From IMG/VR virus record IMGVR_UViG_3300005264_000193, positions 1-21,531 of that record: a stretch of DNA of 21,531 bases. One strand, 5' to 3'. Below the pieces are notes generated by a model. The model saw nothing but the letters and a program-made list of their open reading frames with translations, ran no database searches and was not told where the DNA came from. Positions 11,202 through 18,763 of this stretch are shown in pieces. This DNA comes from a virus. The position numbers and the translations under genes are program-made. Position 1 is the first letter of the stretch. The number at the start of each line of letters is the position of its first letter.

Positions 11202-11263
11202 AATAAATATATACTTTTTTGATCGAATATGTTATCTTAAAAATAAGAGGAGATTTACTAAAT
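11202..11263 (+). promoter_or_regulatory. Gap ahead of gene 55 with its ribosome binding site
   Basis: This 62-base AT-rich gap holds GAGGAG at 11247-11252, 11 bases before ATG 11264, and fixes the start of gene 55. A TTG at 11219 that would lengthen the protein by 15 residues has no such site. The stretch AATAAATATATAC at 11202-11214 loosely resembles the T4 late promoter core TATAAATA but is not an exact match, so no promoter is claimed. Confidence 0.5.
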
Positions 11264-11854
11264 ATGTCCACCAATAATTATGTTGATAAAGAAGAAATGT
11301 TAGAGGAATTAATAATATATAGGAAATTGTATCTGGAATGGATAAATAAAGGTAAATTAGATGAAGATAAGCCATTTATAAGTAATACACTATATCGAAT
11401 GATTTCTGATATCGCTAATCATTATGCTAGTAGTGGTAAATTCGCAGGATACAGCTATAAGGAAGATTTTATATCAGAAGCAATTTCTACTTGTGTGAAA
11501 TATTGTCATAATTTTAATCCTGAAAAACAAAAAGTGCCACAGCCATTTTCATATATTACAATGATTTGTCATAATGCTTTTATTAACTATATAAATAAAC
11601 AAAATAAGCACTCAGAGATAAAAAAGGAATTATATGATATAGTTGTTTTGTTGATTGAAGAGGATCAGTATGGCCTAAAAGCAATAAATTATGAGTTATA
11701 TAAATTGTATAAGAGTTTGAAGAAGGAACATATAGATATATTATGCGGAAAATGTAATCACAAATGGGAAGATTTTAAGAATGTTGAAAAGTGTGTTAAA
11801 TGTGATAGTGATATGTTATTTAAACCTTTGGTAAAAAAGAAGAAAAAGACGTGA
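11264..11854 (+). CDS. 55: Late-transcription sigma factor gp55, with C-terminal zinc ribbon
   Basis: 196 residues from ATG 11264. Residues 4-115 follow T4 gp55 closely as I recall it: NNYVDKEEMLEELI (T4 YNYVNNKELLQAII), FAGYSYKEDFISEAISTCVKYCHNFNPEK and PFSYITMICHNAFINYINKQNK, the region-2-like part that binds the polymerase beta' coiled coil and melts the late promoter. The C-terminal end is different. T4 gp55 ends in a hydrophobic/acidic sliding-clamp-binding peptide (SLDFLYE). Here residues 161-180 form a zinc ribbon, CGKC-x12-CVKC (C161, C164, C177, C180), followed by DSDMLFKPLV and a Lys-rich tail. It would direct host RNA polymerase to late promoters, most likely including the tail genes around it. 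Its stop overlaps the start of an HNH endonuclease gene. Confidence 0.85.
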   Translation: MSTNNYVDKEEMLEELIIYRKLYLEWINKGKLDEDKPFISNTLYRMISDIANHYASSGKFAGYSYKEDFISEAISTCVKYCHNFNPEKQKVPQPFSYITMICHNAFINYINKQNKHSEIKKELYDIVVLLIEEDQYGLKAINYELYKLYKSLKKEHIDILCGKCNHKWEDFKNVEKCVKCDSDMLFKPLVKKKKKT

Positions 11855-12585
11855 GAAAAGGTCAACAACATTCTGAGGAAACAAAAAGAAAGATAAGCAC
11901 ATCGAAAAAGGATGTGAAATTAAGTGATGATCATAAGAGAAAAATAGGCGAATCTAATAAAGGTAATAAATTTCCTAAGAAGTTCGGACAAGAAATAAGT
12001 GAGAGACAAAAAGGAAAAAAGAATACTTTTTGGAAAGGTGGATATAGTAAAAGAGGTATTCCTACTTATGATACTTATGCACCGCAAATTGAATGGTGTG
12101 AGGAAGTGAGGCGAAACAAGGAAGATCCAAACGTACTGGAAGTAAAATGTTTCAAATGTAAGGAATGGTATATACCTAAATTATGGACAGTTAGAAATAG
12201 AATACAAGTATTAAAGAATACTAATTCTGCTGAATTACATTTTTATTGTTCCAAAGAGTGTAAAAATTCTTGTTCTATATACGGTAAAACACCTGAAACT
12301 CTTATGAAACAAGATGCGGTGAGAGCCGGAAGGTTACCTTGGTTAGAACTCGGAAGAGAAGTGCAAATTCAGTTAAGAAGTATGGTTTTAGAGCGTGACG
12401 AATATAAATGTGTTAAGTGTAATAATATCAGCAACTTACAATGTCACCATATTTATCCAGTGAGTATCAATCCTTTAGAAAGTGCTGATATAAATAATTG
12501 CATAACATTATGTGATAAGTGTCATAAAGAAGCACATAAAAAAGATGGATGTGGTTATAACCAATTACACTTAAAGGAGTGTTAA
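11851..12585 (+). CDS. NUMOD3/HNH homing endonuclease
   Basis: 244 residues from GTG 11851, which overlaps the gene 55 stop as GTGA; no ATG is available upstream. Residues 1-62 hold repeated NUMOD3-type DNA-binding motifs (HSEETKRKISTSKK, LSDDHKRKIGESNKG, ISERQKGKKNTFWKG). A central Cys-rich part (C100-x2-C103 ... C133-x3-C137) is likely zinc-binding. Residues 175-230 are a classical HNH nuclease: C187-x2-C190, H199-H200, N216, C221-x2-C224-H225 and H229. Free-standing endonucleases of this build are selfish elements that cut a phage lacking the insertion and spread by recombination. Translation is probably coupled to gene 55, as there is no strong ribosome binding site. The protein looks intact. 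Confidence 0.88.
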   Translation: MRKGQQHSEETKRKISTSKKDVKLSDDHKRKIGESNKGNKFPKKFGQEISERQKGKKNTFWKGGYSKRGIPTYDTYAPQIEWCEEVRRNKEDPNVLEVKCFKCKEWYIPKLWTVRNRIQVLKNTNSAELHFYCSKECKNSCSIYGKTPETLMKQDAVRAGRLPWLELGREVQIQLRSMVLERDEYKCVKCNNISNLQCHHIYPVSINPLESADINNCITLCDKCHKEAHKKDGCGYNQLHLKEC

Positions 12586-12604: not shown

Positions 12605-14083
12605 TTGGATTTTCACGGAATAAAAATGATGGGAGACTTAGAGACTGATAATATAAAGTCTAAAGGATCTGATGGTATTACAATATATGATGATGATAAT
12701 GGACAAGCTGCGAAAATATATGCGGATGGTTCATTAAAGTTTAAAATTGAAAATGTTGATATTGGTAGTGGTACAATTGATGGAACTACTATTGCTACAA
12801 GTGATATTACAGTAGGTTCCGGTAAAACCTTGGATGTTTCTGATGGTACATTAACACTAGCGTATGATCAAATAAGCGGAAATGTGATTGAAGGTGGTAC
12901 TATTAATGATATAATTATCAACACATTAACATCAACATCAGCAACTATCACAACAATTTCACCCACTACTATCAATGCTTTCACATTAGCAGGCAAATTG
13001 ACTGCTGGTGTCAATGAAATTGAAGGTAGTAATTTTGATATAAATGGTGGCACTATAGATGATGTTGCCATTGGAACTGCTGTTATTAGTGACAGTACTA
13101 TCAATGCTTTCACATTAGCAGGCAAATTGACTGCTGGTGTCAATGAAATTGAAGGTAGTAATTTTGATATAAATGGTGGTACTATAGATGATGTTGTCAT
13201 TAATAATTCAACTATAGGTATCACAACAGCATTAGCAGGATCATTCACAGATTTAACTGCTACTGGTATTACAGATACGGGATTGACAGCAAATAGAGCA
13301 ATATACACTAATGGAAGCAAAGTTTTAACGAGTTCGGCTATTACGAATACTGAATTAGGTTATCTCGAAGGAGCGAGTAGTAATATTCAAGATCAGTTAA
13401 ATGGTAAATTAGGTTCAATTTCCTTATTATCAGATAGAGTTGCAATATCTGATAGTTTAGGTGGATTAGCATCGTCTGTTATCACTTCTAATGAATTATC
13501 AACACTTGATAATATAACAAGTAATATTCAAACACAAATAGACAGTAAACAGGAAACAATAATAGGTGCAGCGACCACAATAGATACTGAGAATTTGACT
13601 CCTAATAGAGTTTTACTATCTAATGGATCTGGTAAAGTTGCGGCTTCTTCTATTATTAGTATCACTGAATTGGAAAGTCTTAATGGTATTTCTAGTAGTA
13701 GTACTATTCAAGTACAATTGGATGGAAAAATAACATCAGTAGGTGTGCCTGCTATAGGGGATATAATATATTGTGCATCAGCAGGAACATGGATAAAAAC
13801 TAATTTAGCAACATTAGTGGAGGGTATGAGTATGAGTATGGATGTTTATGTACAAAGAGGAACCATTACAGGTAATTGGACAAGTAATCAACTATACCTT
13901 GCAACTACAGTTGATGCAACTAAATCATTTTTGAATCTTCACGGAAATTTGTTATTAAATAATAATCAAGGTTGGAGTGAATATGTAAATATTCACGGAA
14001 TTTTAGCTCCTGAAGGTCATTGTTTTACAGCAAATGAACTTGTTGATTGCCAAGGCTATTATGAAGTAATCACATATAATTAA
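12605..14083 (+). CDS. Tail fibre protein with repeat shaft
   Basis: 492 residues from TTG 12605, chosen because GGGAGG lies 7 bases upstream; in-frame ATGs at 12626 and 12629 are alternatives. The N-terminus (DFHGIKMMGDLETDNIKSKG) fits a phage fibre attachment segment. The shaft has many TINAFTLAGKLTAG / GGTIDDV-type beta units, including one nearly exact 43-residue duplication, followed by units of the form NRAIYTNGSKVLTSSAITNTELGYLEGASSNIQDQL, repeated as VITSNELSTLDNITSNIQTQI and SITELESLNGISSSSTIQVQL. This T-E-L-x-x-L-x-G/N-x-S-NIQ-x-Q-[LI] motif is typical of trimeric phage fibres. The last ~100 residues, after STATION-free sequence around SAGTWIKTNLATL, are a non-repetitive beta domain and probably the receptor-binding tip. 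No intramolecular chaperone domain is seen. Confidence 0.82.
   Translation: MDFHGIKMMGDLETDNIKSKGSDGITIYDDDNGQAAKIYADGSLKFKIENVDIGSGTIDGTTIATSDITVGSGKTLDVSDGTLTLAYDQISGNVIEGGTINDIIINTLTSTSATITTISPTTINAFTLAGKLTAGVNEIEGSNFDINGGTIDDVAIGTAVISDSTINAFTLAGKLTAGVNEIEGSNFDINGGTIDDVVINNSTIGITTALAGSFTDLTATGITDTGLTANRAIYTNGSKVLTSSAITNTELGYLEGASSNIQDQLNGKLGSISLLSDRVAISDSLGGLASSVITSNELSTLDNITSNIQTQIDSKQETIIGAATTIDTENLTPNRVLLSNGSGKVAASSIISITELESLNGISSSSTIQVQLDGKITSVGVPAIGDIIYCASAGTWIKTNLATLVEGMSMSMDVYVQRGTITGNWTSNQLYLATTVDATKSFLNLHGNLLLNNNQGWSEYVNIHGILAPEGHCFTANELVDCQGYYEVITYN
12967..13201 (+). repeat. 129-bp tandem duplication in the fibre shaft
   Basis: Bases 12967-13072 and 13096-13201 (106 bp) are identical except for two positions: 13051 C versus 13180 T (silent, Gly) and 13068 C versus 13197 T (Ala to Val). 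The offset is 129 bp, exactly 43 codons, so the frame is kept. Confidence 0.95.
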
Positions 14084-14682: not shown

Positions 14683-15672
14683 GTGGTTTTACTACTAACG
14701 GATACACACCTTGGTCTGTATAAATCCTCGGACCTTTGGCATGATGTCACTATAAATCTCTTTAAAGAAGTGGTTGATACTGCTTTGAGTAGAGAGATTC
14801 AAACCATCATACATCTTGGCGACTTTTTTAACGAAAGGAAATCTACCAACAATAAAACATTGGAGGTGGCTTATGAAATTGCAGAAATTCTAAAGACTAT
14901 CCCCGATACTTATATCATTACTGGCAATCATGATATATATTACAAGAACAAACTCAACCCTTCTGCCCTTACCATGTTCAAAAATTTCAAACATATTCAC
15001 ATAGTTACGGAGCCATGTACCTTATTGGATGATAGCATATGTATGATTCCTTGGGGTCAAGAGATACCTGAAAGTGTCACTGAAAAGTATTGTTTAGGAC
15101 ATTTTGAAATCAATAACTTCTTTATGAATAGTAAAGCTAAATGTGACAAAGCCAAACTAAATGCTTCTGATTTCAGTTCATTTGATCATGTCTATTCTGG
15201 GCATTTTCATACACCTTCCACACAAGGAAATATCACTTATCTTGGTTCACCTTTTCAACAATCCTTTCACGACGTTGGATCATCAAGAGGATACTACATT
15301 TTTGATAAAGGTGATCTAGAGTTTATCGAGTTTAAGGATTATCCGAAGTTTACAAATGTGAAAAGTTCTGATATACTGAATGTTGAATTAATTAAAAACA
15401 ATATCATCAATTTTGTGTTTGAAGAAGATTATGGTACGAATAAAAACATACAATTAGTTGAAAAAATACAGTCTTTGTCTCCACAATCTTTAAAAGTGGA
15501 TTTCGGTAAGATACCTATTGAAGATAATGATATAGAGATGTTGAAAGACATTGTGATCGAGGGACATGATATGATTTTAAATGAATACATTAATCAAGAT
15601 AAAAACAGACCAAAAGGTCTCAAGAAGAAGAAGATAAAGCAACTATTGAGTGAAATGATGGAAGAAATATGA
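14683..15672 (+). CDS. 47: Recombination endonuclease subunit gp47 (SbcD/Mre11-like)
   Basis: 329 residues from GTG 14683 (T4 gp47 is 339). It has the full set of metallophosphoesterase motifs: LLTDTHLG (D7, H9), HLGDFFNER (D47, N50), TGNHD (N82, H83, D84), LGHFEI (H140) and SGHFHTP (H174, H176). These residues hold the two manganese ions of Mre11-type nucleases. The C-terminal part (from about 215) is the capping and gp46-contact region and ends Lys-rich. With gp46 it resects DNA ends for recombination-dependent replication. The TGA stop overlaps the ATG of the next gene as ATGA. It does not adjoin gene 46 directly; three small genes lie between. Confidence 0.95.
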   Translation: MVLLLTDTHLGLYKSSDLWHDVTINLFKEVVDTALSREIQTIIHLGDFFNERKSTNNKTLEVAYEIAEILKTIPDTYIITGNHDIYYKNKLNPSALTMFKNFKHIHIVTEPCTLLDDSICMIPWGQEIPESVTEKYCLGHFEINNFFMNSKAKCDKAKLNASDFSSFDHVYSGHFHTPSTQGNITYLGSPFQQSFHDVGSSRGYYIFDKGDLEFIEFKDYPKFTNVKSSDILNVELIKNNIINFVFEEDYGTNKNIQLVEKIQSLSPQSLKVDFGKIPIEDNDIEMLKDIVIEGHDMILNEYINQDKNRPKGLKKKKIKQLLSEMMEEI

Positions 15673-15857
15673 ATGAATCTCAACAGATAGTAAAGAAAAT
15701 TCGATTACTTGAGGAGGAATTATACAACATTCAAGAGAAATGTTTACATCTGATGGTTGAAAAAATACCAAGTCATTATAATCCATCTGATGGTGATTAT
15801 TGCATTGGTAATGAATGTTTTTGTCCGGAATGTTTGAAAAGATGGAAAGATTATTAA
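15669..15857 (+). CDS. Small Cys-rich, zinc-ribbon-like protein coupled to gene 47
   Basis: 62 residues, starting in the ATGA overlap with gene 47. Residues 1-24 are a charged helix; then come C25-x-H27 and, after a Ser/Tyr/Asp turn, C45, C50, C52 and C55 in the order YCIGNECFCPECLKRW. The C-x-H ... C-x2-C-x3-W layout is one I recognise from small phage proteins that probably bind one zinc ion. No enzyme motif is seen. The coupling suggests it is made in step with gp47. Its role is not known. Confidence 0.7.
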   Translation: MNESQQIVKKIRLLEEELYNIQEKCLHLMVEKIPSHYNPSDGDYCIGNECFCPECLKRWKDY

Positions 15858-15880
15858 ATAAAAATAAGGAGATATAGATT

Positions 15881-16357
15881 ATGGCAGGACGATTTGAAGA
15901 TGTTGGTGATGAAATATTGGAATTTGTTAATAGTGTAAAAAAGGAGTATTTTCCTGAATTGAAAAGTGCTACTATTAAAGTAATGTTTGATACCAAGAAG
16001 AAAACCAGTAAAGGTAGATTACAGATTGCTACTATCTCTAAAACTAACGAATTACAAAGATATTTAACTATAGATGAATCGAATAGCACATATGGATATG
16101 ATTACTTTCTATATCTTGATCAAATGATTTGGAATAATGGCGCCACGACAAAAGATAAGGAAAGAATTGTTCGTCACACGCTACAATACACCGACGTGGA
16201 TATGGAAAAGGAAAACCCTTATATATTAAGAGGTTGTGAGGTTATGACTTTCTATGATGAGATAGAAAGAAATAAAGATGATCCAGAATGGGAAGCAAGA
16301 TTGATGGAAGTGGGAATTTCTCTTTATGAACAAGCGAAAAAGGAAAAGAAAGAATAA
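15881..16357 (+). CDS. PhageMetallopep-like protein with degenerate active site
   Basis: 158 residues, ATG preceded by AAGGAGATA. The build matches the putative phage metallopeptidase family (PhageMetallopep) as I recall it: residues 28-60 (ATIKVMFDTKKKTSKGRLQIATI), 73-84 (YDYFLYLDQMIW), then the position of the zinc helix and a closing LRG-H-D-V-E-E-F segment. Here the zinc helix reads IVRHTLQYTD (residues 96-105) instead of HELxH, so the catalytic Glu and second His are lost, and the RGHD segment reads YILRGCEVMTF (114-124), losing the His. Only H99 of the usual ligands remains. Proteolysis is therefore unlikely; a binding or scaffold role is possible. It sits between genes 47 and 46 and its stop overlaps the next start. 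The fold call is by motif memory. Confidence 0.65.
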   Translation: MAGRFEDVGDEILEFVNSVKKEYFPELKSATIKVMFDTKKKTSKGRLQIATISKTNELQRYLTIDESNSTYGYDYFLYLDQMIWNNGATTKDKERIVRHTLQYTDVDMEKENPYILRGCEVMTFYDEIERNKDDPEWEARLMEVGISLYEQAKKEKKE

Positions 16358-16653
16358 TGGGTATAGAATATAGTTCAAACTTGATGATAGGTGAAATGTT
16401 TAACAACAATGATGAATTGGATTATAAGGAATTGGATTGTAGTACATTGGAATTTGCTGGAAATTTAATAACGGGTGAATATATGTGTATTGGTATATCA
16501 TTATCTTCAATAAAGAAATATGACAGTTATGTAACTATTGAAGGTGTTGATAATTATGATTTTATAAAAGAGAAGATTACTGAAAAACTCAAGAAATTCT
16601 TTCCCAATAGAGAATTGAATGTGAAAATGTATCTTGTAACAACTATTTCTTAA
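16357..16653 (+). CDS. Unknown small protein between the metallopeptidase-like gene and gene 46
   Basis: 98 residues; the ATG shares one base with the previous TAA (TAATG), so translation is likely coupled. The N-terminal third is acidic with Asn/Asp/Glu runs (NNNDELDYKELD); the rest alternates strand-like and helical segments (YVTIEGVDNYDFIKEKITEKLKKFFPNRELNVKMYLVTT). There is no Cys cluster, membrane segment or known motif. I do not recognise the family. Its place inside the gp47/gp46 block is the only clue to function. Confidence 0.65.
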   Translation: MGIEYSSNLMIGEMFNNNDELDYKELDCSTLEFAGNLITGEYMCIGISLSSIKKYDSYVTIEGVDNYDFIKEKITEKLKKFFPNRELNVKMYLVTTIS

Positions 16654-16675
16654 TGATAAAGGTGTGTGTGAAAAT

Positions 16676-18763
16676 ATGGATCGTATAGAATTTAAAAAAG
16701 TAAGATTCAAAAACTTTCTTTCTTATGGCAAGAAGTGGCAAGAAGTGGAATTACTTAAAGGCATCAATCTCGTTACTGGTATTGATAAGGATACTGGCAA
16801 ATCTAATGGTTCTGGTAAATCATCATTATTAGAATCCATATCTTTTGCTCTTTTTGGTACTGTACACAATGATGTGAAACAGAGTTCCATTATCAATTGG
16901 AAAACTAAAAAAGGTACAAAAGTAGAGCTATATTTCAGTAAAGGTAATATAAATTATAAGATATGTAGGTCACTTAAACCTAACAATCTTGAAATCTATA
17001 AAGATGATGTACTTATAGATACTCCTTCACATGTCAAGTATTACCAAGATCAGTTAGAATCTATCATTGGTATTAACAAGAGAACTTTTTCTAAACTTAT
17101 CCATTCAAATATCAATTCTGCAAATCAAATACTATCAATGAAAAAGGGTGATAAGCGTAAATTCATGGAAGAATTGTTTGGACTTGGTATTTATACTGAG
17201 TTACAGAAGCTTTCCAATGAACGGTTAAAAGATATACAGGACAAATTGAGAGAAAATGAGTTGAAATATAGTCACAATGAGCGTTCAATAGAAGATATGA
17301 AAAATACTATTGATAATCTCAAATCTAAAATTTCTAAAGCCTCTTCTGAGAGTGATTATGCCGATGAGTTAAAGAGATTAGATGAATTATTAAAAGAGTG
17401 TATATCTAGTATGTTACAATCTTGGGAATTGAAGAGAATAAAAGAAGCCTATGACAAGAATGTTGAGGAAAAGGAGAGCAAAGAAAAGGAACTGGACAAA
17501 CTATGGGTTCAAACTGATATGTTGAAAAAAACTCTTATCAGTAAAGAGAAATCTATAAAATCTATAAAATTGCAAAAGGTACCGGATACTGAAATTATTG
17601 AAAAGAAGGAAAATGACATAAAAGAAATTTTGGATAATGTAACTCGATCAATTAACAAGTTGAATACTGATATTGCAGTCACTAAATCTGATTTGAATCG
17701 AATTAAACAACAAAAGGATGATTTGGATGGTGAAGATATATGTCCTACTTGTGGACAAACAGTTTCAGGTAAGATACATATGAGTCACAATGATGAAATA
17801 AAAAAACTTGACAAATCTTTAACAATGTTATATACTAAGCGTAAAGAAAGTGAGGGAGAATCCAAAGATAATCAATCTAAACTTGACAAAATTCAGTTGA
17901 TAAGAAAAAAGTGTGAACAAGTTAATAGAGACAAAGAGAAAAAAGATGAATTGTTACAAGAGATCGAAGAGTTAAAGAAAGATATAATTGAATATGATAA
18001 AAAGAAGGTTCCGTTAGCAAAAAGATGTACATATTTGGGTGTTTGTATTCCTCCAAATGAGAACAAATTAAAGGAACATGAAGAAAAAAGTGATATATAT
18101 AAATCACTTTTACAAGAAATTCAATATGTGAAAGATAAGAAGGAATTGGAAGACAAAGCAAGTTCGGAATTGAATCTTTTGGTGAAGGATACGACTAAGG
18201 CTATCAATAAAACAAAAAAAGAAAATGTTAATATCACGAAAGATGATATAAAATTGAATGACTTGAAAGATCATATATCATACATTAAGGAAATTTGTAA
18301 AGATGAGAATGCTAAAAGTCTTGCCATATCTAAATCAAGACCAGCATTAGTAAAAGGAACAAATGAATACTTGTCAAATATAGGGTTCAATTTCTATATA
18401 ACACTTGACAATTGGTTGAATGCTGTTATCAAGGGTCCTGGCATTGCTAACGGAGATTATAAGAGTTTATCAAGTGGAGAAAAGAAAACTGTTGATCTTG
18501 CTTTACAGAATGCTTTTCTTGACATTGCCCGTATTCAAGCAGGAGTGATACCAGATATTTTGATTTATGATGAAGTTCTCGATTCCAGTATTGATGGAAG
18601 TGGTTTATCTAAAATTATGGAAATCATACGGAGAAAGGAAATGGAAGATGGATTAAAAGTTTTTATTATATCACACAATGATAATATTACCGAAACGGAT
18701 GAGCCAGATCATATTTATAGAGTAATTAAGAAAAATGGTTTTAGTAATATGGTGATTGAATGA
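16676..18763 (+). CDS. 46: Recombination endonuclease subunit gp46 (SbcC/Rad50-like ATPase)
   Basis: 695 residues from ATG 16676, with AAGGTG at 16659-16664 upstream; a GTG at 16664 in frame would add four residues but lies on top of that site. N-terminus: RIEFKKVRFKNFLSYG, then the Walker A loop as GKSNGSGKSS (41-50). A long charged coiled coil (about 175-555) is interrupted by the zinc hook CPTCGQ (C356, C359). The C-terminal half holds the ABC signature LSSGEKK (598-604) and Walker B with PDILIYDE (626-633). T4 gp46 is 560 residues, so the coiled-coil arms are longer. It forms the ATP-driven clamp that feeds DNA ends to gp47. The stop overlaps the next gene as ATGA. Confidence 0.95.
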   Translation: MDRIEFKKVRFKNFLSYGKKWQEVELLKGINLVTGIDKDTGKSNGSGKSSLLESISFALFGTVHNDVKQSSIINWKTKKGTKVELYFSKGNINYKICRSLKPNNLEIYKDDVLIDTPSHVKYYQDQLESIIGINKRTFSKLIHSNINSANQILSMKKGDKRKFMEELFGLGIYTELQKLSNERLKDIQDKLRENELKYSHNERSIEDMKNTIDNLKSKISKASSESDYADELKRLDELLKECISSMLQSWELKRIKEAYDKNVEEKESKEKELDKLWVQTDMLKKTLISKEKSIKSIKLQKVPDTEIIEKKENDIKEILDNVTRSINKLNTDIAVTKSDLNRIKQQKDDLDGEDICPTCGQTVSGKIHMSHNDEIKKLDKSLTMLYTKRKESEGESKDNQSKLDKIQLIRKKCEQVNRDKEKKDELLQEIEELKKDIIEYDKKKVPLAKRCTYLGVCIPPNENKLKEHEEKSDIYKSLLQEIQYVKDKKELEDKASSELNLLVKDTTKAINKTKKENVNITKDDIKLNDLKDHISYIKEICKDENAKSLAISKSRPALVKGTNEYLSNIGFNFYITLDNWLNAVIKGPGIANGDYKSLSSGEKKTVDLALQNAFLDIARIQAGVIPDILIYDEVLDSSIDGSGLSKIMEIIRRKEMEDGLKVFIISHNDNITETDEPDHIYRVIKKNGFSNMVIE

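Follow-up and report, generated by a model that had tools for sequence, protein, structure and literature searches.

The PhageMetallopep family (Pfam PF18894; PHROGs 513 and 18648) consists of putative phage metallopeptidases, and we found no paper that studied any of its members. Those members that carry the active-site motifs show a weak likeness to the minigluzincins (selecase MJ1213, projannalysin) and to the DNA-protein-crosslink proteases SprT, Wss1 and Spartan; Wss1, Spartan and GCNA have been assigned to the minigluzincins (PMC4559962, PMC5098910). For the SprT-like metallopeptidases of jumbo phages, a patchy distribution has been taken as a sign that they are directed at the host (PMC7824862). 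In phage T4, gp46 and gp47 form a complex of the Mre11/Rad50 type, which is thought to resect DNA ends (PMC3016280).

We analyzed a 21.5-kb virus record with T4-like genes (the window, 21,531 nucleotides over its full length), in which a gene for a 158-amino acid protein lies between genes for gp47- and gp46-like proteins. This protein resembles PF18894 members in length, in framework and in the positions of its H-L and RG...F motifs; in contrast to the minigluzincins and the SprT, Wss1 and Spartan proteins, it has neither HExxH nor their zinc site. From the sequence, we propose that it is a probable pseudo-metallopeptidase and a variant of this known family.

The gene lies within a T4-like gp47/gp46 block

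The T4-like genes of the window encode gp25-, gp6- and gp53-like baseplate wedge proteins, a gp5-like hub, a late sigma factor and the gp47- and gp46-like nuclease subunits. On the plus strand, the gp47/SbcD-like subunit (14683-15672; phrog_100, E 1.3e-70) is followed by a 62-amino acid protein (15669-15857; phrog_4837, E 6.1e-5), whose gene overlaps the gp47 stop by 4 nt (15669-15672), by the 158-amino acid protein (15881-16357), by a 98-amino acid protein (16357-16653) and by the gp46/SbcC-like ATPase subunit (16664-18763; phrog_77, E 5.7e-95). The genes are tightly packed, and the ATG of the 98-amino acid gene shares one base with the TAA of the gene upstream (TAATG, 1-nt overlap). Because the gp47-like protein is 28-34% and the gp46-like protein 23-28% identical to the T4-like proteins with which they were aligned, the window phage is, by sequence comparison, a deep branch and a distant relative of T4.

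The arrangement of gene 47, small genes and gene 46 is common to T4-like phages and the window phage. In T4-like phages, the interval between 47 and 46 often contains small genes, which vary from phage to phage, so little about function can be read from position. We compared the 98-amino acid neighbor with the small gene that two cyanophages have in this interval, and found no kinship. A match of this neighbor to an Ackermannviridae vWFA protein (E 0.6) was rejected, as it involved a single family and an internal part of a far longer protein with no gp46 or gp47 annotated nearby.

The 158-amino acid gene has an ATG start, 158 open codons and, by direct reading, a ribosome-binding site (AAGGAG, 15866-15871, plus strand) 9 nt upstream of the ATG. 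Its in-frame codon score is 0.257 bits per codon, compared with 0.249 for the gp46-like gene, while the remaining two forward frames score negative; its GC3 is phage-like. Since the frame is open and follows the codon dialect of its own phage, the gene looks maintained, and the codon and ribosome-site evidence argues for a gene that is translated. These features and the gene order bear out the initial annotation, which described an intact gene with a good ribosome site between the gp47- and gp46-like genes.

The protein belongs to the PhageMetallopep family

The 158-amino acid protein matched the PF18894 profile with 45.2 bits (E 1.2e-11), well above the curated cut-off of 23.7 bits and across most of the model (residues 11-139 on profile positions 8-128 of 134). 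We also built a profile from 20 motif-bearing members, with the window protein excluded. On this profile the protein scored 30.1 bits, and the best of 5000 shuffled sequences of the same composition scored 7.5 bits. In hhalign comparisons with nine motif-bearing members (95% probability), HTLQY in the window protein fell on HELxH and RGCE fell on RGHD. Both profiles thus agree with the family assignment that had been made from the letters of the DNA. The similarity of the framework is retained at an identity of about 20%. The window protein itself had no match in PHROGs, whereas all 20 of the other PF18894 members match PHROGs 513 and 18648. Weak matches to DUF5065, KH_PARP14_6 and FlgD were all below cut-off and were taken as chance.

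The residues of the active site have been replaced

To compare active sites we used members that were fetched from IMG/VR by DNA pattern and then verified as PF18894. In an alignment of 110 members (about 32 clusters at 70% identity), H99, E100, H103, G118, H119, D120, E122, F124 and G132 are 100% conserved, although the conservation of columns 117-124 is partly a product of selection, as the larger fetch selected on RGHDxE and not on HExxH. Each of the 121 ORFs retrieved with RGHDxExF has HExxH at most 40 residues upstream. Of the nine invariant residues, H99, G118 and F124 are retained in the window protein, where the other six have become T100, Y103, C119, E120, M122 and K132.

At the HExxH position, the protein has HTLQY (residues 99-103; CAC-ACG-CTA-CAA-TAC, 16175-16189, plus strand), in which the first zinc-binding His is kept and the catalytic Glu and the second zinc-binding His are gone. 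At the RGHDxE position, it has RGCEVM (residues 117-122; 16229-16246, plus strand), in which the presumed third zinc ligand has changed from His to Cys, the Asp to Glu and the Glu to Met. It therefore contains neither HExxH nor RGHD with its following acidic residue, the two signatures expected of an active metallopeptidase of this family. Going by codons, residues 100, 103, 119, 120 and 122 are at least eight base changes away from those of the family, which makes a sequencing error or a single recent mutation an unlikely cause. As there is a single His and a single Cys in the entire protein, the usual zinc site of the family cannot form. The loss of the zinc site and of the catalytic Glu, claimed from the two motifs at the outset, is thus borne out against residues that are invariant in 110 members, and we consider it very likely, from these replacements, that the protein is catalytically dead as a peptidase.

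Alternatively, the protein could have remained a metalloenzyme by rebuilding its metal site, for example from H99, C119 and acidic residues, and its chemistry may then be a different one. H99 is kept, the Cys at the third-ligand position is able to bind zinc, and acidic residues are plentiful. However, the protein has only that single His and single Cys, the catalytic Glu has become Thr and the second ligand Tyr, and both the Asp of RGHD and the Glu that follows have changed as well. We regard a rebuilt site as very improbable.

In all fetched DNA, the window protein was the only full-length profile match without HExxH, in a sample in which motif-less members are under-sampled because members were fetched by motif patterns. 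The other sequences rejected by the joint motif filter were fragments plus two proteins that keep HExxH, L188 with its short loop and L144 with KGHD. The latter is a PF18894 protein of an uncultured 484-kb phage (L144:7761-8216) that has HELEH and KGHD for RGHD, and it was the sole such motif-bearing member that we saw.

The motif-less form was found in one phage

We searched for orthologues by exact peptides in viral contigs (IMG/VR) and genome contigs (GTDB) and found none, and tblastn of the 158-amino acid protein in INPHARED returned no orthologue and one spurious match (E 9); records very close to the window may be absent from these collections. DNA patterns for the dead motifs gave 0 matches at the exact spacing, and a pattern for RGC[DE] gave 6 matches with 0 relatives among them; some codon choices were fixed in both sets of patterns, which are therefore not exhaustive. 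Relatives reached through gp46 comprised 80 loci, all 23-27% identical, and 0 of these carried PF18894.

No PF18894 match above cut-off was present in 48 T4-like phage records, many of them fragments, or in another 10 T4-like or large phages, among them HTVC008M, phiM12, Cr30, PhiW-14, CP220, Vi01, RaK2, T4 and Atu_ph07. A search of 27 of these records with alignment A4, for which no separate positive control was run, was likewise empty. A weak match to the HExxH region in RaK2 belongs to a different, vWA-linked metallopeptidase and was set aside; in this phage (L285:10-2622), a MoxR-like ATPase gene adjoins the metallopeptidase-vWA-like protein.

Because no orthologue was found, the pseudo-enzyme claim is carried by one sequence. 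The initial annotation had spoken of a conserved dead enzyme, and conservation is the part of it that we do not uphold: IMG/VR, INPHARED and the GTDB genomes yielded no orthologue, and 58 T4-like or large-phage records are without the family. It had also named two findings that would count against its reading, namely no match to the metallopeptidase fold and orthologues with intact HExxH in the same place, and at the level of sequence we encountered neither.

A dead form confined to one record could be a decaying remnant, that is, a transferred peptidase gene that was inactivated, has not yet been lost and has no present function. This reading would account for the absence of a dead-form relative from every collection searched and for the loss of nearly all characteristic active-site residues. 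Against it stand the open frame of 158 codons, the phage-like codon usage and GC3 and the good ribosome site, as well as a framework similarity that has survived divergence to about 20% identity; a long-unused phage gene would be expected to gain frameshifts or stops. We consider a remnant unlikely, and we think it fairly probable that the 158-amino acid protein has been kept for a binding role.

If the phage does keep the dead form, then phages can make use of the PF18894 fold as a binding module. If, on the other hand, the gene is nothing more than a remnant, PF18894 matches should not be annotated as peptidases without a check of the motifs; no second motif-less full-length member was among those fetched.

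Neighborhood and kinship of the motif-bearing relatives

To place the family in its genomic context, we scanned the genes downstream of PF18894 in 17 representatives. A gene for the terminase large subunit lies within 4.5 kb downstream in 12 of them, and the other five have a terminase small subunit (1), a single-strand annealing protein (1), a helicase (1) or none of these (2). From these downstream genes, the family appears tied to the packaging and DNA-handling part of phage genomes. PF18894 relatives are thus mostly found near terminase genes, whereas a location between gp47 and gp46 was seen only in the window phage.

The best PDB profile matches of motif-bearing PF18894 were MJ1213 (E 0.024) and projannalysin (E 0.19), both confined to the HExxH helix, and the Pfam SprT-like profile matched 2 of 21 PF18894 members (best E 0.0094). 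The initial annotation had drawn a parallel to SprT-like proteases and DNA repair; what stands of it is a weak kinship of the PF18894 family as a whole, so that the analogy is reasonable on sequence grounds but not established.

In PHROGs, the PF18894 family carries the label 'transposase' (phrog_513; all 20 motif-bearing members, alignment A4, e.g. L021, L145 and L153), and PF18894 genes are labeled in the same way in two RefSeq phage records. This label looks like a propagated misannotation.

Possible function next to the gp46/gp47 nuclease

The reading that we favor, with confidence evenly balanced, is that the 158-amino acid protein is a pseudo-metallopeptidase that likely acts by binding only, may be co-translated with gp46/gp47 and most likely serves in DNA-end processing, recombination or replication. 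The protein keeps the PF18894 framework but can neither hold the family's zinc nor polarize water, because it has lost two of its three metal ligands (H103Y, H119C) along with the catalytic Glu (E100T) and the conserved acids nearby (D120E, E122M). It would fold stably, would be translated together with the gp46/gp47 nuclease and might act through binding alone, with the old substrate cleft holding a partner, either DNA or protein; the most likely setting would be the processing of DNA ends, recombination or replication. Should the dead form prove to be maintained, its location between two subunits of an Mre11/Rad50-type nuclease makes such a partner directly testable.

On the basis of gene order, we tentatively suggest a function tied to gp46/gp47 or to DNA ends, and we are inclined to doubt it. 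The neighborhood did not recur in other phages: in contrast to the 47-46 interval of the window phage, the T4-like records examined have no PF18894 member. As none of these other records has PF18894 between 47 and 46 or elsewhere, the nuclease link is not a recurrent one. A more specific proposal, which we consider quite improbable, is that a DNA-associated protease of the minigluzincin type has lost catalysis and now serves the Mre11/Rad50-type nuclease as a third subunit or regulator that recognizes protein-blocked or recombining DNA ends for gp46/gp47.

Instead, the protein could be maintained for binding alone but have a partner other than the nuclease. It might, for instance, serve as an inhibitor or decoy of some host protein, while its gene is simply carried along in an operon that is expressed. 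The host-directed reading of the jumbo-phage SprT-like metallopeptidases (PMC7824862), the position of most motif-bearing PF18894 genes near terminase and not near the nuclease (12 of 17 with the terminase large subunit) and the inconstancy of the genes between 47 and 46 in T4-like phages all favor such a partner, while the position between two functionally coupled genes, with overlapping ends, gives a mild prior for a shared process. We judge a partner other than the nuclease rather unlikely and retain the binding-only protein in DNA-end processing, recombination or replication as our preferred reading.

Other features of the window

Ahead of Walker A, the gp46-like protein carries an insertion (16793-16834; GIDKDTGKSNGSGKSSLLE) that the five aligned T4-like gp46 proteins lack. 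A DNA pattern for this insertion and Walker A stretch, with the window as positive control, had no other match in IMG/VR. The late sigma factor-like protein (11219-11854) ends in a C-terminal CxxC...CxxC stretch that resembles a zinc ribbon (CGKCNHKW...CVKCDSDM), and the end of its gene overlaps by 4 nt with a NUMOD3/HNH homing-endonuclease-like gene (11851-12585). This gene is followed by one for a probable fiber protein (12605-14083) with an internal repeat, in which INAFTLAGKLTAGVNEIEGSNFDINGGTIDDV occurs twice.
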